Shown here piece after piece: positions 4,919-60,396 of a stretch of DNA of 64,000 nucleotides (positions are counted from its first letter, which is position 1; each line of letters begins with the position of its first letter). The translations under genes and the position numbers were made by a program. The DNA comes from Hasllibacter sp. MH4015 (GTDB lineage: Bacteria > Pseudomonadota > Alphaproteobacteria > Rhodobacterales > Rhodobacteraceae), in contig NZ_JAHTBK010000001.1 of NCBI RefSeq assembly GCF_020177575.1, forward strand, positions 3,426,001-3,490,000, read 5' to 3'. The notes beneath the pieces are model-generated. The model was given only the letters and a program-made list of their open reading frames with translations, had not been told where the DNA came from and searched no databases.

Positions 4919-4933
4919 ATTCACGTTTTGTTC
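4919..4933 (-). promoter_or_regulatory. LexA-like SOS box upstream of dnaE2
   Basis: Read in the dnaE2 direction the sequence is GAACAAAACGTGAAT, one mismatch from the alphaproteobacterial LexA box GAAC-N7-GAAC. It ends 13 bases before the ATG. It matches the box before imuB at 12 of 15 positions, in the same orientation and at nearly the same distance from the start. LexA repression of dnaE2 is inferred from this and from the known SOS control of the family. Confidence 0.7.
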
Positions 4934-5022
4934 TTGTTGGGAGTGGGTTGATCCGAAACCATGTGGACAGTCCCCAGGGTCAAGCTCAGCATTAAAACGA
5001 GCAAGACGCGCAAAGCCCCCCT

Positions 5023-6273
5023 TCACTCCCCGTCTTTGCGCGTCAATCCGTAACGCTCAGCCACGCGCCAGACATGCTCAGGCACCATGTTCTTGACCCG
5101 GGCGGGATGGGCGCGACGCAGGTGCAGGATCGTCTCGATGGCTTTCATCTCCACCCGCGCCCGGGCGAATTCGAGGCCCCGTGGCCCGATCCTTGGCTGG
5201 AGGAAAGACACCACGGGACGCAGCCAATCGGGCATGGAGCGCAACGGCATCCCGCCCGCCGCCCGCTCCGTGTTGGCGAGAAATCCCTTCACCGCGCCCT
5301 CGCGCTTGCCCTTGTCTGTCAGCGGACGGATGGCCACCCGATCTGAAATCGCCTCCCACATCTCCGCCCCGCTTACATTGCGGGTGATGACCCATTGATC
5401 CCCATCGCCGCCCATATAGCCCACGGTGATGTCAGCCAGCCGGTTGGTATAATCCACGCATGTCTTGCAGGTCAGGGGGAAGAAATCGGGCGGCAGCTTT
5501 GAGATCGGCAATTGCAGGAACGGCACCACGCGGGTCGGCCTTCCATCGTCAAAGCGCAACTCCACACGATAATCGGCTCGGAATTCGAGGTAGCTGATCG
5601 CATCGGGCCGCTCGTCCAGAAGCGCAAGAAAATCGTGGAATTTCTCGGTGGTCGTGTTGTCCGAACACGGGGTTCCGATGACGTATAGACGCTCCAACCC
5701 CAAATCCGCCTCGATCTGCCGAAGTGCGTAGACCTGGCAGGGGATTCCGATCACCGCGATGCGCTTGTGCCCGGCCTCCATTGCCGGCTCCAGCGCCGCC
5801 AGCGTGGGGCCAAACCCCATCCGCATCCCGCGGCATTGGGCCAGCCCCTCGGGTTCCGTCACGATGACAGGCAGGGGCTTCCAGCGATCCTCCGGGTCCG
5901 GGGCGACCGTAAGCACGGCGGTCACGGTGCCGGAGCGGAGCAGTTCAGCCGCCAATTCCGTGGTCAGGCCCGTCCATTGCGCACCGGAGGCGGGAACGCG
6001 CAGACGGGCACGGTGCATGGCTTGGGTGACGCCAAAAAACGCCTCTTCCCCTCTATCGGGGTCCGTGACACGCCCATGGACGCGCCGTTCCGCGCCCGGA
6101 TAATCGGGCTGGATGAATTGGCAGGCTTTGCCACATGCCTTGCCGTCCCCCATCCGGCTGATCCCGCAATCGGTGCACAATCCCGGCCGCGGCCCGCCGC
6201 CAAGCTGCGGGGCAATGGGGATATCTGCACGGGTGTCTCGGGGCATGGGGATGGCTTTCGGACAACGACGCAT
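5023..6273 (-). CDS. FrhB/BciB-family iron-sulfur flavoprotein (F420 hydrogenase beta-subunit-like)
   Basis: Protein of 416 residues of the coenzyme F420 hydrogenase/dehydrogenase beta-subunit superfamily, which includes the ferredoxin-dependent 8-vinyl reductase BciB and 7-hydroxymethyl chlorophyll a reductase. The N-terminal cysteine cluster (GLCTDCGISRMGDGKACGKAC), an internal GIPCQVYALRQIE and the later CKTCVDYTNRLADITVGYMGG motif fit iron-sulfur and flavin binding. No other photosynthesis gene is in the window, so a bacteriochlorophyll role is possible but unproven. The ATG at 6273 has only a weak site; the ATG nine codons in is an alternative. It lies 117 bases upstream of dnaE2 on the same strand. 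Confidence 0.8.
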   Translation of the reverse strand: MRRCPKAIPMPRDTRADIPIAPQLGGGPRPGLCTDCGISRMGDGKACGKACQFIQPDYPGAERRVHGRVTDPDRGEEAFFGVTQAMHRARLRVPASGAQWTGLTTELAAELLRSGTVTAVLTVAPDPEDRWKPLPVIVTEPEGLAQCRGMRMGFGPTLAALEPAMEAGHKRIAVIGIPCQVYALRQIEADLGLERLYVIGTPCSDNTTTEKFHDFLALLDERPDAISYLEFRADYRVELRFDDGRPTRVVPFLQLPISKLPPDFFPLTCKTCVDYTNRLADITVGYMGGDGDQWVITRNVSGAEMWEAISDRVAIRPLTDKGKREGAVKGFLANTERAAGGMPLRSMPDWLRPVVSFLQPRIGPRGLEFARARVEMKAIETILHLRRAHPARVKNMVPEHVWRVAERYGLTRKDGE

Positions 6274-6327
6274 CTTCTGCCCGATAGGGTGTGCAAGTCA
6301 ACTTGAGCGTGTGTGCCCCAATGAAAG

Positions 6328-6357
6328 AGGCAGCCCCGATCCGCACCGGAGCTGCCT
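6328..6357 (-). terminator. Hairpin after the purine permease gene
   Basis: AGGCAGC and GCTGCCT form a seven-base-pair stem with an inner TCCG/CGGA pairing, starting about 25 bases past the permease stop on the minus strand. The tail, CTTTCATT, is only moderately T-rich, so termination strength is uncertain. Confidence 0.5.
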
Positions 6358-6381
6358 ATGGCAAACGATTTTCCAAGTGCC

Positions 6382-7815
6382 TCAGCTTTTGGGCAAGCTG
6401 CCTTCGCCGTGACCCGCCATGCCGCCCGATACCTCTTCGGTGGATTCGGCGGCCAGCTCCTCCGGCAGAACGAGGTTCAGCACGATCGCGATCAATGCCG
6501 CGGGAAGAAGGCCCGAGGTCATGAGGATGCGCAGCGTCTCGGGCAAGTATTGCACCGCCTGCGGGTCAAGTTGCAGGCCCAGACCAACGGACAGCGAAAT
6601 CGCGAAGATCACCATGTTCCGGCGGTTCCAGTTCACGTCCGACAGCATCGAGATGCCTGCGGCCACGACCATGCCGAACATCACGATGACACCACCGCCC
6701 AGAACCTCGATCGGGATGGTGCGGATCACCGCGCCGACCTTCGGCACAAGACCGCACAGGATCAGGAACAGCGCGCCGATGGTCACGACATGGCGGCTCA
6801 TCACGCCGGTCATGGCAATCAGTCCGACATTCTGGCTGAAGGAAGTGTTGGGGAAGCCACCGAACAGGCCCGCAATCGCGGTGCCGACACCATCGGCATA
6901 GGTCGCGCCGGAAATTTCCTTGTCGGTCGCCTCGCGCCCCGCGCCACCCTTGGTGATGCCCGACACATCGCCGACGGTTTCGACCGCCGACACGAACGCC
7001 ATCAGGCAGAAGCCGACAACCGCCGCGATCGAGAATTCGAAGCCGTAGCGGAAGAGCTCGGGCAAGGCGAAGGGTGCGGCGCGACCCCAAGAAGTTCCGA
7101 TCCCCTCGAACGTGACCATGCCGAACATCAGCGCATAGATGTAGCCCGCGATGATGCCGATCACAACGGCGGATACCGACAGCATGCCACGCGCGAAGAA
7201 TTTCAACCCGAGCGTCACGAAGACGACCACAAGCGCCGCGCCCCAGTTCAGAAGGCTGCCGTATTCCGGCTGGGTGATCGCCGGAACACCGCCGGCTGCG
7301 TATTGGATGCCGACCTTCACCAGCGCCAGGCCGATCATCGTAACGACAAGGCCGGTGACAAGCGGCGGAAGGGCGAAGCGGATCTTGCCGATGAACGTCG
7401 CCAGAACGGCGTGGAACAGACCGCCCACGACGACCCCGCCGAACAGTGCCGGAAGCGCCTCGACCCCCTGACCTGCGACAAGCGGGATCATGATCGGAAT
7501 GAAAGCGAAAGACGTGCCCTGGACGATCGGCAGGCGCGCGCCCACGGGCCCCAGGCCGATCGTCTGGAACAGCGTGGCGATGCCTGCGAATAGCATCGAC
7601 ATCTGGATCAGGTATGTCATGTCCGGGAAGCCATTGGCCCCCGCATCGGAGCCGAACCCGAACCCGGCGGCGCCGGAGATGATGATCGCGGGCGTGATGT
7701 TTGATACGAACATGGCCAGCACGTGCTGGATGCCCAGTGGAACCGCGCGGTGAAGCGCCGGTGTGTAATTCGGATCGCGGAGCTGCGCTGGCGTTCCGAT
7801 GCTGTTGTCAGCCAT
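6382..7815 (-). CDS. NCS2-family purine (urate/xanthine) permease
   Basis: Polytopic inner-membrane symporter of 477 residues from the nucleobase-cation symporter-2 family. The NCS2 signature QNVGLIAMTG is complete, and about a dozen hydrophobic segments can be counted. Its place as the last gene of the puuE-uraD/allE/allA operon, 27 bases after allA, suggests it imports urate or xanthine rather than uracil. The start has a clear GGAGGGA site in TGGAGGGACAAGAAG before the ATG. A hairpin follows the stop. Confidence 0.88.
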   Translation of the reverse strand: MADNSIGTPAQLRDPNYTPALHRAVPLGIQHVLAMFVSNITPAIIISGAAGFGFGSDAGANGFPDMTYLIQMSMLFAGIATLFQTIGLGPVGARLPIVQGTSFAFIPIMIPLVAGQGVEALPALFGGVVVGGLFHAVLATFIGKIRFALPPLVTGLVVTMIGLALVKVGIQYAAGGVPAITQPEYGSLLNWGAALVVVFVTLGLKFFARGMLSVSAVVIGIIAGYIYALMFGMVTFEGIGTSWGRAAPFALPELFRYGFEFSIAAVVGFCLMAFVSAVETVGDVSGITKGGAGREATDKEISGATYADGVGTAIAGLFGGFPNTSFSQNVGLIAMTGVMSRHVVTIGALFLILCGLVPKVGAVIRTIPIEVLGGGVIVMFGMVVAAGISMLSDVNWNRRNMVIFAISLSVGLGLQLDPQAVQYLPETLRILMTSGLLPAALIAIVLNLVLPEELAAESTEEVSGGMAGHGEGSLPKS

Positions 7816-7842
7816 CTTCTTGTCCCTCCAGATGACCTGTCG

Positions 7843-8334
7843 TCACCGTTTCGTTGATGTGACAAGCACCGGCTCCTCCATCCGGTACTCCTCAAGGTTG
7901 GGGCCATCGCCGACCCTGTCGATTACGGCGAAAAGGCCGGACCCGGCGATCGGCGCAAGAACGCCGTGCCAGGTGTTGCGTGCCAGGTTTACGGCGACCG
8001 AATGGGTGGCCAGAAATGCGGAAGCGGGGCCGGGTCGGCCCCCGTCGTCGGGCGCGACGATCACGAGATACGCGGCGTCGGACATCGGGATGAAGCATTG
8101 GGAGCCAAGCGGATGACGCTCCAGCAGGTCGCAGGTATACGGCATGTCGCGCAGCGTCGCCTGGAACAGGCTAAGCCCGACTGTGCCGTCTTCGATGTCG
8201 AATGTCGCAAGGTCGGTATACCGGTTGCACATCCCCGCATTGATCAACAGCGGTTGGACTGTGCCGACTTCGATCACTTCGCCGTAGGGCTTGAAAGCCT
8301 CCGCCGTGATCGCAGTGGCGACAAGCGATCTCAT
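7843..8334 (-). CDS. allA: Ureidoglycolate lyase
   Basis: Protein of 163 residues matching AllA, which splits ureidoglycolate into glyoxylate and urea, the last step of ureide breakdown in the cytoplasm. Family features include FKPYGEVIEVG near the start, CNRYTDLA, the cupin-like LLERHPLGSQCFIPM and NTWHGVLAPI near the C-terminus. The ATG at 8334 overlaps the allE stop by four bases (ATGA), which indicates translational coupling. A longer frame upstream lies inside allE and is not used. Confidence 0.92.
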   Translation of the reverse strand: MRSLVATAITAEAFKPYGEVIEVGTVQPLLINAGMCNRYTDLATFDIEDGTVGLSLFQATLRDMPYTCDLLERHPLGSQCFIPMSDAAYLVIVAPDDGGRPGPASAFLATHSVAVNLARNTWHGVLAPIAGSGLFAVIDRVGDGPNLEEYRMEEPVLVTSTKR

Positions 8335-9158
8335 AGGTGCATCGCCGGATGCCGGTTGACGTCCTTGTAGAGCAGGTAGCGGAACGGCCCCGGCCCCCCG
8401 GCATAACAGGCCTGCGGGCAGAAGGCGCGCAGCCACATGAAATCTCCCGCCTCAACCTCCACCCAATCCTGGTTGAGGCGATAGACGGCCTTGCCTTCCA
8501 GCACGTAAATCCCGTGTTCCATCACGTGGGTTTCCGCGAACGGGATCACACCACCCGGCTGAAAGGTCACGACATTGACGTGCATGTCGTGGCGCAAATC
8601 GCTGGGGTCGACAAAGCGGGTTGTGGACCAGACGCCGTCCGTGTCCGGCATCGGCACAGGGTCCACGTCATCGTCATGGGTGAAGACCGGCTCGGGGCGG
8701 TCCAACCCTTCCACGGGTTGGTAACGTTTGCGGATCCAATGGAACTTTGCGTGGCCCGACGTCCGATTACGCAGGCTCCAACCGCTGCCGGCAGGAAGAT
8801 AGGCATAGCCACCGGGGGTCAGGGTACGGGCGCTGTCGCCAAGGGTAATCTCGACCTCGCCTTCCATCACGAAGATCCCGGCCTGAACCGTCTCATCGGG
8901 CTCTGGCCTGTCCGATCCGCCACCCGGTGCCACGTCCATCACATATTGTGCGAAGGTTTCCGCAAAGCCGGTCATGGGCCGGGCCAGGACCCAGGCTCGG
9001 GTGTCATCCCAGAAGGGGAAGGCGCTGGTGACGATATCCTGCATCACCCCCTTGGGTATCACCGCGTAGCTTTCGGTGAACACGGCCCGATCGGTCAGCA
9101 CCTGCGTCTGTGGTGCAAGCCCGCCCTGGGGCGCAAAATATGTGCGGCGTTCGGTCAT
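8331..9158 (-). CDS. allE: (S)-ureidoglycine aminohydrolase
   Basis: Bicupin of 275 residues that converts (S)-ureidoglycine to (S)-ureidoglycolate and ammonia. Two cupin halves are visible: the first includes EGEVEITLGDSARTLTPGGYAYLPAG, and the second carries the metal-binding pattern ETHVMEHGIYVLEG followed by FMWLRAFCPQACYAGG. The N-terminus, YFAPQGGLAPQTQVLTDRAVFTESYAVIPKG, is characteristic of the family. Start and stop both overlap neighbouring genes by four bases, so it belongs to a tight operon. Its substrate normally comes from allantoate amidohydrolase, which is not in this window. Confidence 0.92.
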   Translation of the reverse strand: MTERRTYFAPQGGLAPQTQVLTDRAVFTESYAVIPKGVMQDIVTSAFPFWDDTRAWVLARPMTGFAETFAQYVMDVAPGGGSDRPEPDETVQAGIFVMEGEVEITLGDSARTLTPGGYAYLPAGSGWSLRNRTSGHAKFHWIRKRYQPVEGLDRPEPVFTHDDDVDPVPMPDTDGVWSTTRFVDPSDLRHDMHVNVVTFQPGGVIPFAETHVMEHGIYVLEGKAVYRLNQDWVEVEAGDFMWLRAFCPQACYAGGPGPFRYLLYKDVNRHPAMHL

Positions 9159-10576
9159 TGTGCGAACAAATCCCTCAATCGGTGAAGCGCGATCCGTTCG
9201 ACCTGGTGACAGGCCTCGGCGAATTCTGCGTCGCGGGAATGGGTCAGGCGCTCGTGAAAGGCCGACAGGATGCTGGCCTTGTCATGGTCGCGTACGGCGA
9301 TGATGAAGGGAAAGCCGAACTGCGCCACATATTGCGTGTTGAGGTCCGTGAAGGTCTGGCGTTCGGCATCGGTCAATGCATCCAACCCGGCCGACGATTG
9401 CTCGGACGTCGATTCCGCCGTCAGCCGCTTGGCCTGCGCCAGCTTGCCTGCAAGATCCGGGTGTGCGTTCAACACGCCCAGCCGCCCCTCTTCACTCGCC
9501 AGCCGGAATTGCACGGTAAGGGCGGCATGGATGCCGGTGGCGCTGTCATGGGCGGGCCCAAGCTCCCCGTCAAAGACGCGCTCGGCGATCCACGGAGAAT
9601 GCTCGAAGATGCTGCCGAACGCGGCCACGAAATCATCTTTCGACATGCGGGACGGGCGCAGGTCCGGCGCCTTGTAGGGATGCGTTTTCATCCAATGCTC
9701 CGCAATGTCGATCCGGCGCGCGACCCAGACGTCGTCATGGCCCTGCACATAGTCGAGGAACCGTGCCAGCGCCGCCGCCCTGCCGGGGCGTCCCAGAAGG
9801 CGGCAATGCATCCCAACGCTCATCATCTTGGGCGCGCCTGCCTGCCCTTCCGCATAGAGCGTGTCGAAGCTGTCCTTGAGATAGGCAAAGAAATGATCGC
9901 CGGTGTTGAACCCCTGCGGCGTGGCGAAGCGCATGTCGTTGGCGTCGAGCGTGTAGGGGATCACCAGCTGCGGGCGGTCGGCCACGTCGATCCAATAGGG
10001 CAGATCATCGGCATAGCTGTCGGAAACATAGTCGAAACTGCCGTCTTCCGCGATCAGCCGCACCGTGTTTTCGGAGCACCGCCCCGTATACCACCCGCGC
10101 GGCGCCTGCCCCGTGACGGCCTCGTGCAGCGCCTTGGCCTGCACGATGTGGCCGCGCTCGTCCTCCGGGGTGAAGTCCTTGTACTCGATCCATTTCAGAC
10201 CGTGGCTCGCAATCTCCCACCCCGCGGCATTCATTGCGGCCACCTGCTCCGGCGATCGGGCCAAGGCTGTCGCCACGCCATAGACCGTCAGCGGTAGGTC
10301 GCGGGATGTGAACAGGTTATGCAACCGCCAGAACCCGGCCCGCGCGCCGTATTCATAGATCGACTCCATATTCCAGTGCCGTTGCCCGGGCCAAGCGGCG
10401 GCTCCGACGATCTCGGACAGGAACGCCTCGGATGCGGCATCGCCGTGGAGGATGCAATTCTCACCCCCCTCCTCGTAATTGAGGACGAATTGGAGGGCGA
10501 TCTTCGCGCCACCGGGCCATTCAGCCGCCGGCGGGGTCGACCCATATCCGGACATATCGCGGTCATATCGTTTCAA
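9155..10576 (-). CDS. Fused allantoinase (PuuE type) and OHCU decarboxylase (UraD)
   Basis: Bifunctional protein of 473 residues. Residues 1 to about 305 are a polysaccharide-deacetylase-like allantoinase (PuuE: ALQFVLNYEEGGENCILHGD, ASHGLKWIEY, GWYTGRCSENTVRLI), which opens allantoin to allantoate. From about residue 310 it is 2-oxo-4-hydroxy-4-carboxy-5-ureidoimidazoline decarboxylase, with HPDLAGKL at 372, SSAGLD at 394 and the FGFPFIIAVR motif at 420. The fusion joins two steps that are separated only by free (S)-allantoin. It is the first gene of the operon and is divergent from uraH across 144 bases that hold a perfect inverted repeat. Confidence 0.93.
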   Translation of the reverse strand: MKRYDRDMSGYGSTPPAAEWPGGAKIALQFVLNYEEGGENCILHGDAASEAFLSEIVGAAAWPGQRHWNMESIYEYGARAGFWRLHNLFTSRDLPLTVYGVATALARSPEQVAAMNAAGWEIASHGLKWIEYKDFTPEDERGHIVQAKALHEAVTGQAPRGWYTGRCSENTVRLIAEDGSFDYVSDSYADDLPYWIDVADRPQLVIPYTLDANDMRFATPQGFNTGDHFFAYLKDSFDTLYAEGQAGAPKMMSVGMHCRLLGRPGRAAALARFLDYVQGHDDVWVARRIDIAEHWMKTHPYKAPDLRPSRMSKDDFVAAFGSIFEHSPWIAERVFDGELGPAHDSATGIHAALTVQFRLASEEGRLGVLNAHPDLAGKLAQAKRLTAESTSEQSSAGLDALTDAERQTFTDLNTQYVAQFGFPFIIAVRDHDKASILSAFHERLTHSRDAEFAEACHQVERIALHRLRDLFAQ

Positions 10577-10624
10577 ATTGCACTCCTATCCCAATCTTCG
10601 CATAAACCGCGAGGACGCTTCGGT

Positions 10625-10645
10625 CTTTCAAGAAAAAGTTGAAAG
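10625..10645. promoter_or_regulatory. Perfect inverted repeat between puuE-uraD and uraH
   Basis: CTTTCAA, seven bases, TTGAAAG form a perfect palindrome in the divergent promoter region of the urate genes. Further TTTCAA half-sites lie at about 10571 and 10675. A role as operator for a regulator of the cluster is inferred. It does not match the repeat found before puuD. Confidence 0.45.
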
Positions 10646-10720
10646 TGTTTCAGAGCTTCTTGCATTTCAAAGCAATCTCCCATGTCTCAGTGACAGGGAA
10701 CCAAGGCAAAGAGGTGCATC

Positions 10721-11077
10721 ATGGCGGGATATCTGACAACACATGTTCTGGACACGGCCCGGGGTTGCCCGGCGGCAGGGCTGAAAATCATGCTCTACAA
10801 GCTGTCCGGCAATTCCCATCGCAAGCTTCTGGAGGTCGTGACCAACGATGACGGGCGCACCAATGCCCCGATCCTGCCTGCGGAGAGCTTTGAGACTGGT
10901 TCGTATGAACTGGTCTTCTGTGCGGGCGATTACCTGCGCGCCACGGGTCAGGCCGGGGATGATCCATTGTTCCTCGACGAAATACCGATCCGCTTCGGCA
11001 TGTCTGACGCGGAGGCCCATTACCACGTGCCGCTGCTGTTGAGCCCCTTCAGCTACGGCACCTATCGCGGCAGCTAG
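10721..11077 (+). CDS. uraH: 5-hydroxyisourate hydrolase
   Basis: Transthyretin-like protein of 118 residues that hydrolyses 5-hydroxyisourate to OHCU, the step between PuuD and UraD. The three family signatures are present: THVLDTARGCPA at the start, the central TNDDGRT, and YHVPLLLSPFSYGTYRGS at the end, with the invariant C-terminal YRGS. It has no signal peptide, so it is cytoplasmic. It stands alone on the plus strand and its stop overlaps the end of the converging LysR gene by four bases. The ribosome site is a GAGG about six bases before the ATG. Confidence 0.95.
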   Translation: MAGYLTTHVLDTARGCPAAGLKIMLYKLSGNSHRKLLEVVTNDDGRTNAPILPAESFETGSYELVFCAGDYLRATGQAGDDPLFLDEIPIRFGMSDAEAHYHVPLLLSPFSYGTYRGS

Positions 11078-11976
11078 GCCAATGCGGCTTTCAGCCGTTC
11101 GGACATGAAGTCGATGAAGAACCGGCTTTTCGGGTCTTGGTTCTTCTTGTGCGGGTAAAGGACTGCAAGTTGTGCGGGCAGGGGGTTGGAGGCCTCGCAG
11201 ACGGCGACCAATTCGCCGGATGCCAGATGATCCTCCACCTCGAAAAGCGGCTTGTTGATGATCCCGCGCCCATCCAAGGCCCAAGCCGTCAACACATCCC
11301 CGTCGTCGCAGGCAAACGGCCCCGTGACGTCGAATTTCTCGTAGCCATCGCTGGTGCTGAGGGTCCATCTGAACTCGGTGGACCCGGGAAAGCGCAACAG
11401 AAGGCACGCGTGATTGTCATTGATCAGGTCGCTGCCATCCACCGGCATGCCCCGCCGCTCGATATAGGACGGCGCGGCGCATAGAACGCGGGGAAACTCG
11501 GCGATCGGCTTGATCCGCAGCCCGGAATCCGGCGGGTTCCCGACGACAAAGGCCACGTCGAGCCCTTCGCCCATCAGGTCCAGCGCGCGGTCCGACAGAC
11601 GAAGGCGGGTGTGAACATCGGGGTACTTCTCGTGGAACAGGGCCACGTTCGGCGCGATCAGCCGCCGCCCGATCCCCAGCGGGGCCGAGACAAAGATCGA
11701 CCCGCGCGGGTTCAGCGTGATCTCGTGCACGGCGGCCTCGGCTTCTTCCAGCGCCTCCAGCACCTTGATCGCCTTGGGATAGAAGATGCGCCCTTGTTCC
11801 GTCGGCTGGATCGACCGCGTGGTCCGGGTGAACAGGCGAATCCCCAAACGCTTCTCCAATTCCCCGATCCGCGATGACGCCACGGCGGCGGAGACGCGCA
11901 GATCACGGGCGGCGGCAGACATGTTCTCCAATTCATAGACGCGGGTGAACATGCGGATATTGTTGATGTTGGTCAT
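11074..11976 (-). CDS. LysR-family transcriptional regulator of the urate cluster
   Basis: Regulator of 300 residues with an N-terminal winged helix-turn-helix (MFTRVYELENMSAAARDLRV, then SSRIGELEKRLGIRLFTRTTR) and a C-terminal LysR substrate-binding domain. It sits between uraH and puuD and is divergent from puuD. A T-N11-A palindrome in that gap (12004-12020) is a likely binding site. It probably senses urate or a downstream ureide and controls puuD and perhaps the whole cluster; the effector is inferred only from context. Confidence 0.88.
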   Translation of the reverse strand: MTNINNIRMFTRVYELENMSAAARDLRVSAAVASSRIGELEKRLGIRLFTRTTRSIQPTEQGRIFYPKAIKVLEALEEAEAAVHEITLNPRGSIFVSAPLGIGRRLIAPNVALFHEKYPDVHTRLRLSDRALDLMGEGLDVAFVVGNPPDSGLRIKPIAEFPRVLCAAPSYIERRGMPVDGSDLINDNHACLLLRFPGSTEFRWTLSTSDGYEKFDVTGPFACDDGDVLTAWALDGRGIINKPLFEVEDHLASGELVAVCEASNPLPAQLAVLYPHKKNQDPKSRFFIDFMSERLKAALA

Positions 11977-12003
11977 TATTCGGCTTTTTTTGAAGCTGAT
12001 GCA

Positions 12004-12020
12004 GATAATCGTGAATTATC
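12004..12020. promoter_or_regulatory. LysR-type operator between the regulator and puuD
   Basis: GATAAT, CGTGA, ATTATC form a perfect 6-5-6 palindrome that contains the classical LysR motif T-N11-A (T at 12006, A at 12018). It lies in the 95-base divergent region, 28 bases from the regulator start and 52 from puuD, where LysR proteins usually bind to repress themselves and activate the divergent gene. Confidence 0.6.
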
Positions 12021-12071
12021 ATATAGCCGATGGGCAGTATAGCGTGTCCCGGATGTCAGGAGGGCCGCGCG

Positions 12072-13319: not shown

Positions 13320-13333
13320 TCCGGCAAGCGGGC

Positions 13334-13410
13334 TGGCGACCCCGGCAGGATTCGAACCTGCAACCTGCCCCTTAGGAGGGGGCTGCTCTATCCAGTTGAG
13401 CCACGGGGCC
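13334..13410 (-). tRNA. tRNA-Arg (CCT anticodon)
   Basis: A 77-base cloverleaf on the minus strand: acceptor GGCCCCG with CGGGGTC, D stem GCTC/GAGC, anticodon stem GCCCC/GGGGC around loop CTCCTAA (anticodon CCT, reading AGG), T loop TTCGAAT, discriminator G, and an encoded CCA. The only imperfect pair is one G-T in the acceptor. Confidence 0.95.
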
Positions 13411-13516
13411 AGCCGATCCGTTTTCGGTGATTTGCCGGCATCCCGCAATCCCTTGCGGTGCTGCGCGTTGCGGGCGTATCAAAGGCGAAAGGCGCACACG
13501 ACCAAAGGACGACCCC

Positions 13517-14539: not shown

Positions 14540-14546
14540 GCAAGGC

Positions 14547-15230: not shown

Positions 15231-15252
15231 AGCGGCCTTTAGCCCATCAGCC

Positions 15253-16665: not shown

Positions 16666-16779
16666 GGGCCGGGTCTCCACCGCTGGACTATGCCGCGCAA
16701 TATACGACGCCGCCCGGCGGGGGAAGCGAAGGAAGCGACCGGCCAATGGCTCGGGCCGACGCAGCATATTTCTTTCCAA

Positions 16780-16799
16780 TTGTATAAAATTTGTATAAA
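16780..16799. promoter_or_regulatory. Direct repeat TTGTATAAA in the sdaA/GntR divergent region
   Basis: Two copies of TTGTATAAA start at 16780 and 16791, eleven bases apart, which is about one helical turn. They lie 28 bases before the GntR-family start codon. They could be an operator for that regulator or an AT-rich promoter element; nothing in the sequence decides between these. Confidence 0.4.
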
Positions 16800-16826
16800 G
16801 CGGCTAGATCAAGGTAGGAGGCGTGT

Positions 16827-18451: not shown

Positions 18452-18543
18452 GGCATGGCGGCGAGACGCGATTTGCAATGCGCAGGGCGGATGTCGGTCG
18501 CGATCCCGTCGAACCTCGCCGGTTCCACGAGAGAGGTCGTGAC

Positions 18544-45910: not shown

Positions 45911-45939
45911 GCGGACGCGGCGGGGCGGGCCCGTGGGCG

Positions 45940-49418: not shown

Positions 49419-49490
49419 GCCGTGGGGCCACCCAAACGCCCCATACTTGCCGTGCTTGACACGCCGTCCTTGCTCCGCCATCCGCGACCC

Positions 49491-49856: not shown

Positions 49857-49860
49857 CGGC

Positions 49861-50907: not shown

Positions 50908-50923
50908 CTGGTCGCTGCGCCGG

Positions 50924-52501: not shown

Positions 52502-52800
52502 GACCTGCCTTCACCCAATTCGGGCCGAGGTCTGGCAGACCGAAATATCCCCATCCCACAACGCAATGCGCCACGCGACGATGGCGTGTGCGGGGATGGT
52601 GAACCTCGTTACTCAACTCGATGTGGCGCGATTTTCCGCGTCCACTGCCTGCCTCGGCGTTATATTTATGAAGAAAGCGTTAACACGGCTGCCCGATTAT
52701 TGGTCATGTTTCTGCACGCTTTGCGCCCTGTTCTTGTCGTATTGTGATCTTCCGGCCACGCCGATAGGGGTTGGAGAGGCCCTGACCAAGGAGGTTTCGC
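52502..52800. other. Gene-free region between the Hint genes and dapE
   Basis: These 299 bases are the divergent promoter region of the Hint gene pair and dapE. An AT-rich segment is at about 52660-52710. I see no ORF, RNA or strong palindrome. Confidence 0.5.
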
Positions 52801-53952
52801 ATGTCCCACACCCCCGTCGATCCCGTCGCCCTGACCGCCGATCTGGTGCGCTGCAATTCCGTCACGCCGCGCGAAGGTGGCGCGCTTGTGCTGCTGGAAA
52901 AGCTGCTCTCGGATGCCGGGTTCGACTGCACCCGTGTGGACCGTGGCGGCATCGCGAACCTCTATGCGCGCTGGGGCACGCGGGGCAACGGCAAGGCGTT
53001 CGGCTTCAACGGCCACACGGACGTGGTGCCGGTGGGGGATGAGGCCGCGTGGACCTTCCCGCCCTTCGGCGCGGTGATCGACGGCGACTGGCTCTATGGG
53101 CGCGGCGCCACGGATATGAAATCGGGGGTCGCGGCCTTCGCCGCCGCCGCCGTGGATTTCGTGCGCGACACCCCGCCGGACGGCGCGGTCATCCTTGCGA
53201 TCACGGGCGATGAGGAAGGCGAAAGCACCGACGGCACCATCGCTCTTCTGGACTGGATGGCGGAGGCAGGCGAACGCATGGATGCCTGCATCGTCGGGGA
53301 GCCCACCTGCCCCGAGCGGATGGGCGACATGATGAAGATCGGCCGCCGCGGCGCGCTGACCGCGTTTTTTGAGGTGATCGGCAAGCAGGGCCATTCCGCC
53401 TACCCCCACAAGGCGCTCAACCCGATGCCCGCGGTCACGCTCCTGGGCCACCGGCTCGCGACCCACACGCTTGACCAGGGAACCGATCATTTTGATCCCT
53501 CCACGCTCGCCATCACCACGATCGACACCGGCAATCCGGCCAACAACGTCATCCCCGCGCGCACGAAAATGACCGTGAACCTGCGCTTCAACGATCTGCA
53601 TTCCGGCGACAGCCTGACGGAATGGCTCCGGGCGGAGGCGGACAAGGTCGCGTCGGAAACCGGCACCCTGATCGAGATGTCCTCGAAGCTGAGCGGTGAG
53701 AGCTTCCTGACCCCGCCCGGCGACCTCTCCGCGCTGGTCGCCAAGGCTGTCACCGCCGAAACGGGACTCACGCCCGAGATGTCGACCACCGGCGGCACGT
53801 CGGACGCGCGCTTCGTGAAGAACCACTGCCCCGTCGTCGAATTCGGCCTTGTCGGCCACCGGATGCACGAGGTCGACGAACGGGTCCGCGTCAGCGACAT
53901 CCACGCCCTCAAGGCCGTCTATGCTCGCGTCTTGAACGATTACTTCGCCTGA
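52801..53952 (+). CDS. dapE: Succinyl-diaminopimelate desuccinylase
   Basis: Zinc aminoacylase-type hydrolase of 383 residues that releases LL-diaminopimelate in the lysine and peptidoglycan pathway. Metal and catalytic motifs are [40 protein letters not shown] and the C-terminal [17 protein letters not shown] precedes the ATG. Located 3.8 kb from dapD. Confidence 0.96.
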
Positions 53953-54023
53953 TCACCCGCTAGGATCTACACGCGCCGACCCCCTACCCGTGGGGCGGCC
54001 CGGCCCGTGATCACGGCGGACGC

Positions 54024-54060
54024 CCCTCTTTGCTTTCCAAATACCTCCCCCGGAGGGTCC
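54024..54060 (+). repeat. Intergenic repeat, copy 1
   Basis: The segment starts CCCTCTTTGCTTTCCAAATA and continues through ACCTC to a GGGTCC. It matches the copy at 62822 in CCCTCTTTGCTTT and AAATACCTC, with the two bases between differing. It lies 71 bases after the dapE stop and before rnr. Confidence 0.6.
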
Positions 54061-54134
54061 GCCCGCGCCACGCGCGCCAAACGCCCGCCAATTCCCCGAT
54101 GACGCCCCCCCACGCCCATGATACGCCCGCACCC

Positions 54135-56387
54135 ATGAGCAACATCCCCTCCAAAGACGAAATCCTGCAATGGATCACCGATAATCCCGGCCAGCGCTCC
54201 AAGCGCGACATCGCCAAGGCCTTCGGGATCAAGGGCGCCGCGCGGATCGACCTCAAACGCCTCCTGAAGGAGCTTGAGGCGGAGGGGCATCTCGAAAAGA
54301 AGGGCCGCACCTACCGCGACCCGGACAAGCTGCCTCCGGTCGGTGTGCTGATCGTGCAGGCCCCTGACAGCGACGGCGATCTTTTCGCGCGCCCGATGAA
54401 CTGGGACGGCGACGGGGTGGAGCCTCGCGTGCTCTACACGCCCCGCAATTCGGACCCTGTTGTGGGTGAAGGCGACCGCATCCTCGCCAAGCTGTTCGCG
54501 GCGGACGGGGAAGATCACCAATATACCGCCAAACTGATCCGCAAGATCGGCACCAACCCGCGCAAGATCCTCGGCATTTTCCGCAAGGGCTCCGACGGTG
54601 GGCGCATCTCTCCCATCTCCAAGGGGTCCGACAAGGAATGGCTGGTCAAGCCCGGCGACACTCACGGCGCGAAGGACGGGGAATTGGTGGAGGGTGAGCT
54701 GGCCGGACCCAAGGCGCGCATGGGCCTGCCGCGCGCGCGGATCGTCACCCGGCTGGGTGATCCCGGTGGCCCCCGCGCCGTGTCCCTGATCGCGATCCAT
54801 GAACACGGCATCCCCGACGCGTTTCCCGATGCCGCAATCGCCCAGGCTGACGCCGCTGAACCCGCCGGCCTGGACGGGCGGGAGGATCTGCGCCACCTGC
54901 CCCTCGTCACCATCGACCCGGCCGATGCGCGCGACCATGACGATGCCTGTTATGCCCACGCCGATGACGATCCCCAGAACAAGGGCGGCCATGTCATCTG
55001 GGTCGCCATCGCCGATGTCGCCCATTACGTGACCCCCGGATCGGCGCTCGACCGTGAAGCGCGCAAGCGTGGCAATTCCACCTATTTCCCCGATCGCGTC
55101 GTGCCGATGTTGCCCGACAGCCTCTCGGGGGATCTCTGCTCGCTCCACGAAGGGGTGGATCGCGCCACCATCGCCGTGCGCATGGTGATCAACGCAAACG
55201 GGGCCAAGATCGGCCACTCCTTCCATCGCGGCCTCATGCGCTCCCCAGCGTCACTGAATTATGAGGAGGTTCAGGCCGCCCGGGACGGCACTCCGAACGA
55301 CAAGACAGCACCCTTGCTGGAGAACGTGATCGCCCCGCTCTACGCCGCCTATGACAGCCTTCTGACCGCGCGGGCCAAGCGGCAGCCGCTGGAACTGGAC
55401 CTGCCGGAGCGGCGGATTGAGCTGGACGAGGATGGCACCGTCACCTCCGTCGCCTTCAAGGATCGCCTTGATGCGCACCGCCTGATTGAGGAATTCATGG
55501 TCCTGGCCAACGTCGCCGCGGCCGAGACGCTGATACGCAAGAAGACCCCGCTCCTGTTCCGGGTCCACGAAGAACCCTCGCCCGAGAAGCTCGATGCCCT
55601 TCGGGAAACGGCGCAGGCGTCCGGCCTGACGCTGGCCAAGGGGCAGGTGCTCAAGACCTCCCACCTCAACGCGCTTCTGAACGCGGCGGGGGAGGATCAG
55701 GCGGAACTGATTTCCATCTCCACCCTGCGGTCCATGCAGCAGGCCTACTACAATCCCGAGAATTTCGGCCATTTCGGACTGGCCCTGAAAAGCTACGCCC
55801 ATTTCACCTCCCCCATCCGCCGCTATGCCGATCTGATCGTGCATCGCGCGCTGATCACCGCCCATGGCTGGGGAGACGACGGCTTGCAGCCCGACGAAAT
55901 CGACCGCCTGGCCGAAACCGCGAAGCTGATTTCCGATACCGAGCGGCGGTCCATGGTGGCCGAACGCGACACGTCCGACCGCTACCTCGCCGCCTATCTC
56001 TCGGACCGGGTCGGCGCGGAATTTACCGGGCGCATCTCCGGCATCGTGCGGTTCGGGGCTTTCGTGAAGCTCGATGAGACCGGGGCCGACGGCCTTCTGC
56101 CGATGCGCGCGCTGGGGGATGAGTATTTCCACTACGACGACGAGACCCAGACCCTGATGGGGTCGGATACCGGCATCCTGATTGGCGTGGGCGAACGCGT
56201 GGTCGTGAAACTGGCCGAAGCGGTGCCCGTGACCGGTGGCCTGACGCTGGAGCTTCTGGAACATGCAGGCCAGGCCCGCCCGAAACCCGCGCGGCGCAAC
56301 GGGCGACGCAAGGGGCCGGTCCGGCGCAAGGTTGGGGCCTCGAAATCCGGTAAGGCCAAGCTGCGAAAGAAGAAAGCGCGGCGGTGA
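54135..56387 (+). CDS. rnr: Ribonuclease R
   Basis: 3'-5' exoribonuclease of 750 residues. It has an N-terminal winged-helix segment (SNIPSKDEILQWITDNPGQ), cold-shock domains, the RNB catalytic core (TIDPADARDHDDACYAHADD, with the metal aspartates, and GHVIWVAIADVAHYV), a C-terminal S1 domain (GAEFTGRISGIVRFGAFVKL) and a basic Lys/Arg tail (RRNGRRKGPVRRKVG). It degrades structured RNA, including tRNA and rRNA fragments. ATG at 54135 chosen as the family start; an earlier ATG at 54099 is possible. Confidence 0.95.
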   Translation: MSNIPSKDEILQWITDNPGQRSKRDIAKAFGIKGAARIDLKRLLKELEAEGHLEKKGRTYRDPDKLPPVGVLIVQAPDSDGDLFARPMNWDGDGVEPRVLYTPRNSDPVVGEGDRILAKLFAADGEDHQYTAKLIRKIGTNPRKILGIFRKGSDGGRISPISKGSDKEWLVKPGDTHGAKDGELVEGELAGPKARMGLPRARIVTRLGDPGGPRAVSLIAIHEHGIPDAFPDAAIAQADAAEPAGLDGREDLRHLPLVTIDPADARDHDDACYAHADDDPQNKGGHVIWVAIADVAHYVTPGSALDREARKRGNSTYFPDRVVPMLPDSLSGDLCSLHEGVDRATIAVRMVINANGAKIGHSFHRGLMRSPASLNYEEVQAARDGTPNDKTAPLLENVIAPLYAAYDSLLTARAKRQPLELDLPERRIELDEDGTVTSVAFKDRLDAHRLIEEFMVLANVAAAETLIRKKTPLLFRVHEEPSPEKLDALRETAQASGLTLAKGQVLKTSHLNALLNAAGEDQAELISISTLRSMQQAYYNPENFGHFGLALKSYAHFTSPIRRYADLIVHRALITAHGWGDDGLQPDEIDRLAETAKLISDTERRSMVAERDTSDRYLAAYLSDRVGAEFTGRISGIVRFGAFVKLDETGADGLLPMRALGDEYFHYDDETQTLMGSDTGILIGVGERVVVKLAEAVPVTGGLTLELLEHAGQARPKPARRNGRRKGPVRRKVGASKSGKAKLRKKKARR

Positions 56388-56525
56388 TCTTCACGCCCCG
56401 TTAATCGGACGCCGTGCATCGTAACCGGCAGAACCCCGCGCATTGGTACGAGGAAACCTGTCAGTTTCGGGCGAAAATGCTATATTGTTGCGCTATCGTG
56501 CACGATGATCCGACGAAGAATCCCT

Positions 56526-56551
56526 GTGACTGACCCACGTGACTGACCCAC
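56526..56551 (+). repeat. Perfect 13-base tandem repeat before the lytic transglycosylase
   Basis: GTGACTGACCCAC occurs twice back to back and ends four bases before the ATG at 56556. It covers the place where a ribosome site should be, and none is seen. Confidence 0.7.
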
Positions 56552-56555
56552 ACCG

Positions 56556-58088
56556 ATGAACCCACGTCCCCCCATGATCCTGTTCGCGCTTGCCTTGAGT
56601 GCCATGCCGGCCCTCGCGGCCCCGCCCGATGCGTCGCCCGTGCCGATGCCGCGCCCGGACCGCGCGCAGACGGAAGTGGCCCCGACCGCGGATCTGGCGG
56701 CAGAGCCGGCCGCGCCGCGCGGTGGCGTGGTGATCGAAGTGATTGCCCTTGCCGCCATCGAGGAGGCGGAGACGGAGCCGTCCGAAATTCAGCCCGCCGA
56801 CGCCGCCAGCATCACCGGAACCGAGACCAGCGGCACCGGGGAGCCGAGCGCATTGGCCATCGCGACCTCCCGCAGGCCCGTCGCGCGCGGGGAGGTGCCC
56901 GAGGATTTCGCCGCCCGTGCCGCCGAGTTGCGCGCGGCCGCCGATGCGCCGACCCGCACGAATGATCCCGAATTCCGCGCCTGGATCACCGAATTCCAGG
57001 CCCGTGCGCGCGCCGCCGGGATCGCGCAATCCACCCTCGACGCCGCCTTCGCAGGCGTGCAGCTCAACACCCGCGTGCTGGAACGGGACCGCAACCAGGC
57101 CGAGTTTTCCCGCGCGTTGTGGGACTACCTCGACAGTGCCGTCTCCGACACGCGGATCCGCAATGGCCGCGCCCAGACGGAGGAGTGGTCCCAGACGCTC
57201 GCCCGGATCGAGGAGCAATACCGGGTGGAGGCCGAGGTTGTCGTCGCGATCTGGGGTTTGGAAAGCGCCTACGGGGCCGCGCGCGGCTCCACCGACATCA
57301 TCGAAGCGATGGCCTCGCTCGCCTATGACGGGCGGCGGCGCGATTTTTTCGAGGAGCAGCTGATCGCCGCGTTGCAGATCCTTCAGGCGGGCGACACCAG
57401 CCCCCGCAACATGACCGGATCCTGGGCCGGCGCGATGGGCCACACGCAATTCATGCCGACAAGCTACCTGCAATATGCGCGGGATTTCGGTGGCGACGGG
57501 CGGCGGGACATCTGGTCGGACAATCCGCAGGACGCGCTCGCCTCGACCGCCCACTACCTGGCCGAACACGGCTGGACCTATGGCCAGCCCTGGGGGATGG
57601 AGGTGCGCATTCCCGATGGCTTCGATTACCGCCTTGCGGGGGAACAGGAACGCATCGGCGCGGCTTTCTGGAACGGGCAGGGGGTGCGCCTCATCAACGG
57701 CGACCCGATCCCGGATCACGGCCCGGCCTCCATCCTTCTGCCCGCGGGGCATCGCGGCGTTGCGCTTGTCGTCTACAACAATTTCCGCGTGATCGAACGC
57801 TACAACCCTGCGGACGCCTATGTGATCGCCGTGGGGCATCTGTCTGACCGGATACAGGGGCGGCCCGATTTCCGCGCGTCCTGGCCCCGTGGCGACCGCG
57901 CGCTGACCTTTGCGGAGCGGGAGGAGTTGCAGCGTCTTTTGCGTGCGGCTGGCCATTATTCGGAGGATATCGACGGCATCGTCGGGCCGATCACCATTGC
58001 GTCGATCCGCAGCTATCAGGATGCGATCGGCGTAACGCCCGATGGCTATGCGTCCCTGTCGATCCTGGAGCGGTTGCGCAACAGCTAG
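56556..58088 (+). CDS. Lytic murein transglycosylase, MltB-like, with peptidoglycan-binding domain
   Basis: Secreted enzyme of 510 residues that cuts peptidoglycan glycan strands to give 1,6-anhydromuramyl ends. A signal peptide (PPMILFALALSAMPALA before APPDA) is followed by an unusually long Ala/Glu/Thr-rich linker to about residue 130, then the SLT_2 domain with the catalytic glutamate in IWGLESAYGAARGSTDI and SWAGAMGHTQFMPTSYLQYA, and a C-terminal peptidoglycan-binding repeat (LLRAAGHYSEDIDGIVGPIT). The start lacks a ribosome site and follows a tandem repeat. Confidence 0.92.
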   Translation: MNPRPPMILFALALSAMPALAAPPDASPVPMPRPDRAQTEVAPTADLAAEPAAPRGGVVIEVIALAAIEEAETEPSEIQPADAASITGTETSGTGEPSALAIATSRRPVARGEVPEDFAARAAELRAAADAPTRTNDPEFRAWITEFQARARAAGIAQSTLDAAFAGVQLNTRVLERDRNQAEFSRALWDYLDSAVSDTRIRNGRAQTEEWSQTLARIEEQYRVEAEVVVAIWGLESAYGAARGSTDIIEAMASLAYDGRRRDFFEEQLIAALQILQAGDTSPRNMTGSWAGAMGHTQFMPTSYLQYARDFGGDGRRDIWSDNPQDALASTAHYLAEHGWTYGQPWGMEVRIPDGFDYRLAGEQERIGAAFWNGQGVRLINGDPIPDHGPASILLPAGHRGVALVVYNNFRVIERYNPADAYVIAVGHLSDRIQGRPDFRASWPRGDRALTFAEREELQRLLRAAGHYSEDIDGIVGPITIASIRSYQDAIGVTPDGYASLSILERLRNS

Positions 58089-58097
58089 GCGGGAGGG

Positions 58098-58139
58098 AAG
58101 GCCCTTGGAAGGGCCTTGCCGGGTTTTTCGAAAAACCCG
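58098..58139. terminator. Two hairpins between converging genes
   Basis: AAGGCCCTTGGAAGGGCCTT is a perfect palindrome at 58098-58117, followed by CGGGTTTTTCGAAAAACCCG at 58120-58139, also perfect. Placed between the stops of the transglycosylase and MOSC genes, they probably stop transcription from both sides. Confidence 0.75.
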
Positions 58140-58147
58140 CCCCGCGC

Positions 58148-58615
58148 CTAGTCCGGGCGGACCGTATCCCCGATTGCGATGGCACCCGGTTCCACCACCT
58201 GCGCGCACCACCCGCCATGGCCCCGCATCGCGTTGTATCCGCCGGGGCCAAGGGCGGCTTCCATGCGCGAGCAGGGCGCGCAGGGGATCGTGATCTCCAC
58301 CAGCGCGGAGCCGAGGCGCAGGCGCTTGCCGCGCAACGCGCCCAGGTTCAGACCCGCGATCACGAGGTTGCGGCGCAAGGTCTCCGGCGCGACCGCCTCG
58401 ATATGGGCCAGCGCGGCGATCACCGGCAGATGCTCCGCCTGGATCAGGGTCAGCGCGCGCTTGCCCGGGCGGGCATGGTCGCCCTCCAGCCCCGTGTCGC
58501 GCAAGGCCGCGCGGTCGACGGCCACCATGTCGGCCAGGCGCTTGGGCCGCAGGCCGATCCAGTCGATCCGTCCGGTGCCCGCATGGCGCGCGGTAAGGGT
58601 GGCAAGCGTTTCCAT
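58148..58615 (-). CDS. MOSC-domain protein
   Basis: Protein of 155 residues with the MOSC pattern DTGLEGDHARPGKRALTLIQAEH and a conserved cysteine in ALVEITIPCAPCSRMEAALGPGGYNAMRGHGGW. The family handles sulfur and molybdenum cofactor chemistry; here it stands alone with no molybdoenzyme in sight. Divergent from imuB with 89 bases to the ATG of that gene. Confidence 0.87.
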   Translation of the reverse strand: METLATLTARHAGTGRIDWIGLRPKRLADMVAVDRAALRDTGLEGDHARPGKRALTLIQAEHLPVIAALAHIEAVAPETLRRNLVIAGLNLGALRGKRLRLGSALVEITIPCAPCSRMEAALGPGGYNAMRGHGGWCAQVVEPGAIAIGDTVRPD

Positions 58616-58677
58616 GGGCTGACCGTATCAACATCGCACGGCGGACTCGACTCCCGGCAAGGGGCGTTCTAATTTGA

Positions 58678-58692
58678 GAACAAAGTGTGAAC
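58678..58692 (+). promoter_or_regulatory. LexA box upstream of imuB
   Basis: GAACAAAGTGTGAAC matches the alphaproteobacterial LexA box GAAC-N7-GAAC exactly and ends 12 bases before the ATG at 58705. The GTG at 58687 lies inside it, so that codon is unlikely to be the start. Confidence 0.85.
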
Positions 58693-58704
58693 ATAGCGTT
58701 GCCA

Positions 58705-60396
58705 ATGCCCGCGTCTCCCGCCCAATTCGCCTTCACCAAGAACCGCCGGATCCTGTCGCTCTGGTTTCCACGGCTGGGAGCGGAGCGTGTCTTGCGCGCC
58801 GAGCCCAGCCTGGCGGAGGCCGCGCTTGTGACCGTGTCCCAGATCGGCAATACGCGGGAGCTTGCCACCACCACCGCCCCGGCCGAGGCGCGCGGCCTGT
58901 CGCGGGGGCAGCCGCTCAGCGAAGCGGTGGTGCTGTGCCCCGACATCATCACCCGTCCCGCCGAACCGGGGCAGGAGGCGGCGTTCCTGGCGGCCCTGCG
59001 CCGGTGGGCCGGGAGGTTCAGCCCGTGGGTGGCGGAGGAGGGGCCCGAAAGCCTTCTGATCGACCTGACCGGCTGCGCGCATCTGTTCGGCGGGGAACAG
59101 GCGCTGTTCGATCAGGTCCACGTGGATTGCGCCGATCTGGGGCTGACGGTCCGTGCCGGGATCGCCGATACCCCCGGCGCGGCCTGGGCCCTGGCGCGTT
59201 ATGCGGGCGGCGGCGGCGTGGTGGCCGGGCGCAATGGCGATGCGATCGACCAGGAAGCGCCCGCAACCCGGTCCCGTGCGGGCAAACGCCATTGGGTGAA
59301 GGGCGGGGCCGCGCCCCCCGTTTCCGTCGCCGGCGGCGTGGTGGACCGGATCGCCGCCACGGGCAATACCCGCCGCGCCCTCGCCCCCCTGCCGATCGCC
59401 GCCCTGAGGGTGGATGCGGACCTCTGCGCGAGCCTCGCCCGGCTGGGCTTGCGCCGGATCGAGGATTTGCTGGGCCTGCCCCGCGCGGGCCTGACGCGGC
59501 GCTTTGGCCAGATACTCGTGCGGCGGCTGGATCAGGCCCTGGGCTTGCAGACCGAGTCGATTTCCCCGGTGGGGGCGCCGCTGCATTTCGCGGTCCGCAT
59601 CAGCTTTCCCGATCCCATCGGGCTGGAGGCCGATATCATGGCCGGGCTCGACCGGGTCCTGTCACCCCTGTGCGAGAAGCTGCGCGCCAAGGGCCGCGGC
59701 GCACGGCGCGTCCGGCTGGAGGTCAGCCGCGTCGACGGCGATATCCAAACGGTGGAGATCGGGCTGGCCCGTGCCGCGGATCAGCCCGATACGCTTCGAC
59801 CGCTGTTCGAGATGAAGCTGAAGGATGTCGATGCGGGCTACGGGATCGACCGGCTGCGGGTGCTGGCCCATGTGACCGAACCGCTCCACGCGGTGGAGCA
59901 CAAGGGCGGATGGGCCGTCGCGCAGGAGGCCGCCGCCCCGCCCACCGACAGTCGGCTCATGGCCGACCTGATCGCGCGGCTGGGGGCGCGGGTCGGGCTG
60001 GACGCGATCCAGCGCACCCGCCCCGCCGACAGCCACATCCCCGAAAAGACCGACGTGTCCCTGTCGGCCGCCTGGTCCGAGCCCGAGCCGCCCGGCACCT
60101 GGCCCAAACCCGACCGCCCCCGGCCCCTGACCCTGTTCCGCCCCGAACCCGTCACCGCGCCGGATACGCCCGCGCTGCCCTTCGAGTTCCGCTGGCGGGG
60201 GCGGGTGTTCCAGACCCTCTCGGCGCTCGGTCCGGAACGGATCGCCCCGGAATGGTGGCTCGATGATCCCAACTGGCGTTCGGGCGTGCGCGACTATTGG
60301 CGGGTCGTCACCCAAGACGGTGTGATGCTGTGGCTCTATTACGCCCATGGCGGCCTGTCGTCTTCCGGTTGGTTCGCCCAGGGTGATTTCGGGTAG
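58705..60396 (+). CDS. imuB: ImuB, Y-family polymerase-like SOS mutagenesis factor
   Basis: Protein of 563 residues with a Y-family polymerase fold that lacks the catalytic acids, as in all ImuB proteins: motif I reads ILSLWFPRLGAERVLRAEP in place of a D-M-D start, and the motif III position is LLIDLTGCAHLFGG. It connects DnaE2 with the sliding clamp in translesion synthesis. The helix-hairpin-helix region is IAALRVDADLCASLARLG. ATG at 58705 is preferred because the GTG at 58687 is within the LexA box. The imuA gene is not adjacent and dnaE2 is 54 kb away. The end (VTQDGVMLWLYYAHG) fits the family. Confidence 0.92.
   Translation: MPASPAQFAFTKNRRILSLWFPRLGAERVLRAEPSLAEAALVTVSQIGNTRELATTTAPAEARGLSRGQPLSEAVVLCPDIITRPAEPGQEAAFLAALRRWAGRFSPWVAEEGPESLLIDLTGCAHLFGGEQALFDQVHVDCADLGLTVRAGIADTPGAAWALARYAGGGGVVAGRNGDAIDQEAPATRSRAGKRHWVKGGAAPPVSVAGGVVDRIAATGNTRRALAPLPIAALRVDADLCASLARLGLRRIEDLLGLPRAGLTRRFGQILVRRLDQALGLQTESISPVGAPLHFAVRISFPDPIGLEADIMAGLDRVLSPLCEKLRAKGRGARRVRLEVSRVDGDIQTVEIGLARAADQPDTLRPLFEMKLKDVDAGYGIDRLRVLAHVTEPLHAVEHKGGWAVAQEAAAPPTDSRLMADLIARLGARVGLDAIQRTRPADSHIPEKTDVSLSAAWSEPEPPGTWPKPDRPRPLTLFRPEPVTAPDTPALPFEFRWRGRVFQTLSALGPERIAPEWWLDDPNWRSGVRDYWRVVTQDGVMLWLYYAHGGLSSSGWFAQGDFG

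Follow-up and report, generated by a model that had tools for sequence, protein, structure and literature searches.

The genes of the ImuA-ImuB-DnaE2 mutasome belong to a family of cassettes described as LexA-regulated in both contiguous and split form (PMC6511836, PMC3919608), and the cassette is counted in the alphaproteobacterial SOS core (PMC3323433). Departures from the standard arrangement are on record, among them split cassettes, mutasomes that have no ImuA and variants with a standalone ImuB-C (PMC6511836, PMC12926913, PMC3765255), as well as several DnaE2 sequences without the OB domain (PMC3919608); Dinoroseobacter carries an imuA-imuB-dnaE2-type cassette on a plasmid (PMC9426580). 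Here we describe a further arrangement in the marine bacterium Hasllibacter sp. MH4015 (Rhodobacteraceae), centred on a 64,000-nucleotide stretch of its genome (the window; contig NZ_JAHTBK010000001.1, positions 3,426,001 to 3,490,000) that contains dnaE2 and imuB. Together with imuA and a gene for a detached OB domain, both located elsewhere in the genome, these genes quite probably make up a translesion mutasome dispersed over four transcription units, each with a LexA operator, in which DnaE2 is split into two proteins.

The ImuA, ImuB and DnaE2 proteins of this system are homologous to those of the contiguous cassette, which is present in relatives from the same family, but the cassette is one operon whereas here four genes are unlinked and the OB domain is detached from DnaE2. 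Unlinked transcription units are also a feature of the mycobacterial imuA'-imuB and dnaE2 genes; there, however, imuA' and imuB stand together, while here they are separated and the polymerase chain, too, is divided. The ImuA-less and standalone ImuB-C variants likewise distribute mutasome modules over separate proteins (PMC6511836, PMC12926913), but in those cases ImuB is split and ImuA is missing, whereas the present system has ImuA and a split DnaE2. The OB-less DnaE2 and DnaE3 proteins share the absence of the domain, although the accessible text on them mentions no standalone OB gene, LexA control or Rhodobacteraceae context (PMC3919608). Because its composition is mutasome-like, but a single cassette and an OB domain in the DnaE2 chain are both absent, the system is classed as a variant. 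Dispersal of the mutasome is a known kind of variation; a detached, LexA-controlled OB gene or subunit of DnaE2 is without description in the literature searched, mostly without subscription journals, and the main text of a Dinoroseobacter paper with in silico LexA sites does not mention dnaE, imu, error-prone or OB-fold (PMC6473078).

The DnaE2 protein of the window matches the NCBIfam profile of DnaE2-type error-prone polymerases, NF004225, with 1213.9 bits (cut-off 939) over positions 5-938 of 1047. Pfam recognizes the polymerase core, the fingers and HHH_6 in the chain and finds no OB domain there, and alignments with relatives stop near residue 955-987; the OB domain is instead encoded by a separate gene. 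ImuB combines the Y-family fold with the ImuB-C region, Pfam IMS, IMS_C and DUF6504 (which we take to be ImuB-C) all scoring over cut-off, and is 75-77% identical to near-full-length matches in seven congeneric species. Split-type ImuB proteins contain a stretch of ~45 residues (residues ~170-215 of P0001) that cassette-type matches skip. Similarity searches with ImuB, DnaE2 and ImuA found one copy of each in the genome, plus a distant DnaE1, and no intact cassette anywhere. The earlier note on this DNA, made from the letters of the window, had placed dnaE2 and imuB 54 kb apart, reported that imuA is not in the window, and named an intact cassette elsewhere as a finding that would speak against a split; positions and separation are as it gave them, and the single imuA lies ~1.3 Mb away. 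The ImuA homologue is 35% identical to cassette ImuA (E 3.7e-16). The possibility that imuA is absent, with RecA as its substitute, was dropped once the gene had been located with a box of its own.

The OB gene came up during inspection of the genes that follow exact LexA boxes (13 of 93 sites inspected). It lies ~26 kb from imuA, and both are ~1.2-1.3 Mb from the genes of the window. The encoded protein matches NF004225 at positions 947-1039 (E 9.4e-32), such that the DnaE2 core and the OB protein cover complementary parts of a single 1047-position profile, and it matches Pfam PF01336 with 46.7 bits (cut-off 27). By these profile matches the open reading frame (ORF) is the C-terminal OB domain of DnaE2. 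An AlphaFold model has an OB fold with a mean predicted local distance difference test score (pLDDT) of 84; it was built from 75 sequences, namely those loci out of 80 that have an exact box and a start at most 5 nt after it, and a first model from 20 sequences (pLDDT 54) was not used. The 50 PDB structure matches listed for the model include RPA, Stn1-Ten1/CST and tRNA synthetases, which we take to be OB-fold proteins, and no DnaE is among these 50. A sequence search of the PDB was uninformative, the best match being DNA polymerase III alpha at E 0.17.

The split state recurs in relatives. A first sample comprised 81 genomes, 49 in the family of the window (its own genome included) and 32 of other families. 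The OB domain is standalone in 24 of the 49 and fused to the 3' end of dnaE2 in 22, two of which (G033 and G034) were counted as fused from contig fragments, while three (G015, G020 and G031) have neither an OB match nor a DnaE2-level match; one genome, G047, has both a standalone and a fused OB, with a full-length DnaE2 beside the split one. No standalone DnaE2-type OB was found at E <=1e-5 in the 32 genomes of other families, where weak matches (G068, G073) fall in DnaE1 frames; a weak second match occurs in G011 (E 5.7e-7). The ends of the DnaE2 chains agree with this division, extending 0-42 residues past the aligned core in 23 standalone-OB genomes versus 125-190 in 21 fused ones, a comparison that omits G008, whose DnaE2 is in pieces. 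In G009, G010 and G011, of the genus of the window, only a distant set with full-length DnaE2 replaces the split set.

Two further samples extend this picture. Named genomes were scanned with the OB alignment; the best 80 loci were kept, a set biased to close relatives, and their titles give Rhodobacteraceae genera or broader groups. The OB frames of these 80 loci are 128-467 residues long (under 400 in 77, and 447-467 in three), none of DnaE2 length. From these, 29 named isolates were chosen, at least five of which recur in other samples; all 29 have DnaE2, and in each the OB gene is distant from it or on a different contig. The DnaE2 frame is 939-1033 residues long in 26 of them; the remaining three, G085 (1086), G087 (1061) and G096 (1455), are not judgeable by frame length, and a direct OB check found no OB domain in their DnaE2. 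Two Rhodovulum species (G087 and G097) carry a second, full-length DnaE2 with a fused OB. Across 159 genera of the family, in a hand count of the rows listed that was checked for duplicates, a standalone OB (E <=1.6e-40) is present in at least 68, at least 15 have no match, and the rest have fused or short, ambiguous frames. DnaE2 lies away from the single OB match in 53 of 54 newly covered standalone-OB genera; G152 and G156 are further split cases, the DnaE2 of G207 is in two contig pieces, and G210 has DnaE2 (frame 1144) with an ImuB fragment only and no OB match.

The sequence GAAC-N7-GAAC, which we take to be the alphaproteobacterial LexA operator, has 93 exact occurrences in the 3.71 Mb genome, versus 80 for a reversed control. 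The pattern count was rejected as evidence, since at near control level the motif alone proves nothing, and it is position and conservation that carry weight. At the density of the genome, ~1 gene in a thousand would be expected to have an exact site in the 40 nt before its start. Exact sites also precede recA by 86 nt and lexA by 81 nt (both genes identified by NCBIfam), and by the usual comparative argument the motif is therefore the LexA operator in this genome. In an automated scan of 23 split-type genomes, 21 have a box ahead of dnaE2, which is exact in 9 and has one mismatch in 12, and 21 have an exact box ahead of imuB; the two imuB cases missed by the scan (G023 and G045) do have an exact box. 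For imuA the scan gave an exact box in 21 of 22 split-type genomes, the 22nd (G013) proving exact on separate inspection, and for the OB gene the count is 24 of 24. Among the best 80 named OB loci, 79 have an exact box, in a single orientation throughout. Chance matching of the boxes, without any LexA regulon, which the near-control count and the mismatch in the dnaE2 box of the window might suggest, is hardly credible given this retention across genera and the same motif before recA and lexA.

As the earlier note reported, the dnaE2 and imuB boxes are identical at 12 of 15 positions and have the same orientation and nearly the same distance to the ATG. Its proposal that LexA co-regulates the members of a split cassette has good in silico support but was incomplete, imuA and the OB gene adding a third and a fourth place. 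Its further view that the fragments kept the same control element is not established, as the OB box has the opposite orientation and a different place in the promoter; the operators of the four genes may rather have been set separately.

The position of the boxes within the promoters bears on how these genes would be transcribed. Aligned on the box, 79 OB genes share T96, T61/G39 and G90 at positions -18 to -16, and T96 A96 T86 n T92 T89 at +4 to +9, which reads as a -35 element, a 16-bp spacer and a -10 element, the latter lying inside the operator; between the two elements conservation is low, apart from the bases adjoining the box. The first in-frame start is 1-5 nt past the box in 75 of these 79 loci, and the start codon lies 6-8 nt past the -10 hexamer in 72. 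Many dnaE2 promoters have the last T of the box in common with TATACT or TATAAT. Across 8 species of the genus, the imuA box overlaps TTGAGA, and TATACT comes after it, 6-8 nt ahead of the ATG, the genome of the window having TATAAA in place of TATACT; the imuA promoter of G007 was read by eye, the automated choice of start having differed, and outside the genus the -10 is weaker. A -10 element just before the start codon implies transcription starting at or near that codon. Leaderless messages are therefore likely for the OB gene and dnaE2, judging from promoter geometry, and less sure for imuA. The earlier note had raised leaderless messages for dnaE2 and imuB, which the -10 position strongly suggests for the former, as it does for the OB gene, but imuB has no good -10. 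The boxes of recA and lexA lie far enough upstream that start-adjacent geometry is not general in the regulon. An exact box also stands 2 nt before a radical-SAM DNA-repair-type gene (L022) and another precedes the possible starts of a DNA polymerase IV-like gene (L025) by 6-30 nt, which suggests further candidate leaderless SOS genes.

Several observations weigh against the dispersed, co-regulated and partly leaderless mutasome proposed here. Split ImuA matches no curated family, its identity resting on the similarity to cassette ImuA. In G019 the dnaE2 box, with one mismatch, lies >70 nt upstream, and for dnaE2 of G045, which stands in a row of imuB, methyltransferase and dnaE2, no exact box of its own was found. 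The imuB promoter has TTGAGA but no clear -10, and a leaderless message is not claimed for it. AAGGAG lies 3 nt before the ATG of imuA in the genome of the window, and motifs like a Shine-Dalgarno sequence precede 5 of 21 imuB and 3 of 21 imuA starts picked by script (this imuA included), versus 0 of 21 for dnaE2 and 0 of 24 for the OB gene. No such sequence lies between box and ATG of dnaE2 or imuB in the window, as the earlier note had observed; yet, because in a naive control just 9 of 33 ORFs of the window have one, its absence is weak support for leaderless messages, and the comparison was dropped as evidence. Finally, G124 has OB and ImuB but no DnaE2 match, and in three drafts (G117, G136 and G226) ImuB is accompanied by a short-frame DnaE2 with no OB match.

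These last cases, together with the reported OB-less DnaE2 and DnaE3 (PMC3919608), would suit a mutasome that is split but whose OB protein now acts independently, as an SOS-induced factor that binds single strands, DnaE2 managing without an OB domain. We consider this unlikely, as the standalone OB occurs almost only alongside an OB-less DnaE2, 11 of the 15 OB-less genera also lack DnaE2 and ImuB, and the OB protein still matches the DnaE2 profile and evolves as slowly as the core. For species pairs of the genus (four for each gene), the ratio of nonsynonymous to synonymous substitution rates (dN/dS) is 0.03-0.12 for the OB gene and 0.06-0.14 for dnaE2, with 0.04-0.17 for imuB and 0.04-0.36 for imuA. 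By these values the OB gene is under purifying selection and maintained like the polymerase core. We infer that its product acts in trans with DnaE2.

The four genes are >20 kb apart or on different contigs (for draft genomes, the latter does not prove distance) throughout the 23 split genomes, with the exception of imuB and dnaE2 in two of them; imuA was not found in one, G003, by similarity search. In G043, imuB and dnaE2 are ~0.6 kb apart and divergent, each with its own box, and in G045 imuB, a methyltransferase-like ORF and dnaE2 are co-directional, with an exact box before imuB only. The small genomes G045 (L248) and G156 (L270) have long DnaE2 branches and an OB located elsewhere, and in both a similar ORF of ~310 residues (methyltransferase-like by eye) lies between imuB and dnaE2, all in one direction. 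Within the genus of the window, 46-79 kb separate imuB from dnaE2 (measured in 9 species) and 24-28 kb separate imuA from the OB gene (8 species), such that the spacing of 54 kb is ordinary for the genus. In cassette-type relatives imuA, imuB and dnaE2 are adjacent, with rearranged exceptions that include G016, G029 and G035.

DnaE2 trees, with or without the residues past the core, place the 23 split sequences on one side of a branch with 100/100 support. When G238, G152 and G156 are added, the split sequences remain together except for G238, which joins the fused G029 (98/95); with the long sequences of G045 and G156 left out, the 23 other split sequences are supported at 99/97. Forcing G238 among the split sequences is marginally rejected by the approximately unbiased test (p-AU 0.037), for a group that was named after the data had been seen. 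A single origin of the split was supported by the first trees, but two changes are needed after the additions. In G238 (L266) ~1 kb separates the dnaE2 core from the OB gene; an exact box precedes each of them, and an opposite-strand ORF (4432-5307) lies between. This layout may reflect an additional fission, or be left over from the original one; fission may thus have occurred more than once.

The history of the split also bears on whether this is an ordinary split cassette as in mycobacteria, in which a short DnaE2 is decaying and the OB gene is its debris. The dnaE2 gene of G025 (G025:C1:1557935-1560831, minus strand) occupies two reading frames close to its 5' end, as decay, a frameshift or a sequencing error would give. 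Decay is nevertheless very unlikely, as the pattern is kept over many genera, both pieces show low dN/dS (0.03-0.14), the OB gene is equipped with a promoter and a box of its own, and all split cores but that of G238 form the supported group.

Under the dispersed mutasome that we favour, LexA would cover each of the four promoters in the undamaged cell. RecA-stimulated cleavage of LexA after damage would allow the four proteins to be produced together and to assemble, the OB and dnaE2 messages probably without a leader, as their operators lie in promoters with a -10 just before the start codon. ImuB would serve as scaffold, ImuA as a RecA-like partner and the DnaE2 core as catalyst, with the OB protein returning to the complex in trans and binding the single-stranded template, a role ascribed to the fused domain elsewhere. 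A more specific proposal, which we put forward tentatively and hold to be somewhat less probable than its negation, is that DnaE2 in these bacteria is a two-chain polymerase, its single-strand-binding OB domain having become a dissociable, LexA-controlled subunit with a separate promoter, which by its abundance would determine when and where the mutagenic polymerase engages the template.

Table 1. Features of the dispersed mutasome; positions refer to the window, or to the genome where prefixed G000:C1 or C1.
Feature	Position	Strand	Description
dnaE2 core	1918-4905	-	error-prone DNA polymerase, 995 residues, without C-terminal OB domain
dnaE2 LexA box GAACAAAACGTGAAT	4933-4919	-	one mismatch to GAAC-N7-GAAC; 13 nt before ATG
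dnaE2 -10-like TATACT	4914-4919	-	shares last T of box; ends 8 nt before ATG; leaderless geometry
imuB	58705-60396	+	Y-family polymerase-like protein with C-terminal DUF6504 (presumably ImuB-C)
imuB LexA box GAACAAAGTGTGAAC	58678-58692	+	exact GAAC-N7-GAAC; 12 nt before ATG
imuB -35-like TTGAGA	58674-58679	+	overlaps start of box; placed as in imuA promoters; no clear -10
imuA	starts G000:C1:2162786; similarity match C1:2162855-2163280		ATG 16 nt past exact box GAACATTTCATGAAC
OB gene	G000:C1:2189721-2190101		126-residue ORF; ATG 2 nt past exact box GTTCTATCTTTGTTC at C1:2189704-2189718

The neighbours of the two genes in the window can be named from their sequences. A gene of the F420 hydrogenase/dehydrogenase beta-subunit family (FrhB/FdhB; 5023-6273, minus strand) lies directly upstream of dnaE2, and an RTX-type calcium-binding repeat protein (60660-62351, plus strand) comes after imuB. 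A prolyl aminopeptidase frame converges on dnaE2 (1912-1918), its end lying 5 nt from the stop of dnaE2, in the place where an OB domain would otherwise continue.

The natural split found here has consequences for how such polymerases are studied and classed. What the OB domain contributes to a C-family error-prone polymerase is difficult to isolate from the rest of the chain, and in these bacteria the domain is already separated from the chain. Surveys that class DnaE2 by its single chain would score these polymerases as truncated. The predicted leaderless promoters make a clear prediction on how translation of these messages would start after damage. Most often the mutasome is viewed as a single operon with a fixed set of proteins; as many genera of one family keep four co-controlled single genes, a shared operator, and not linkage, seems to underlie its coordination.

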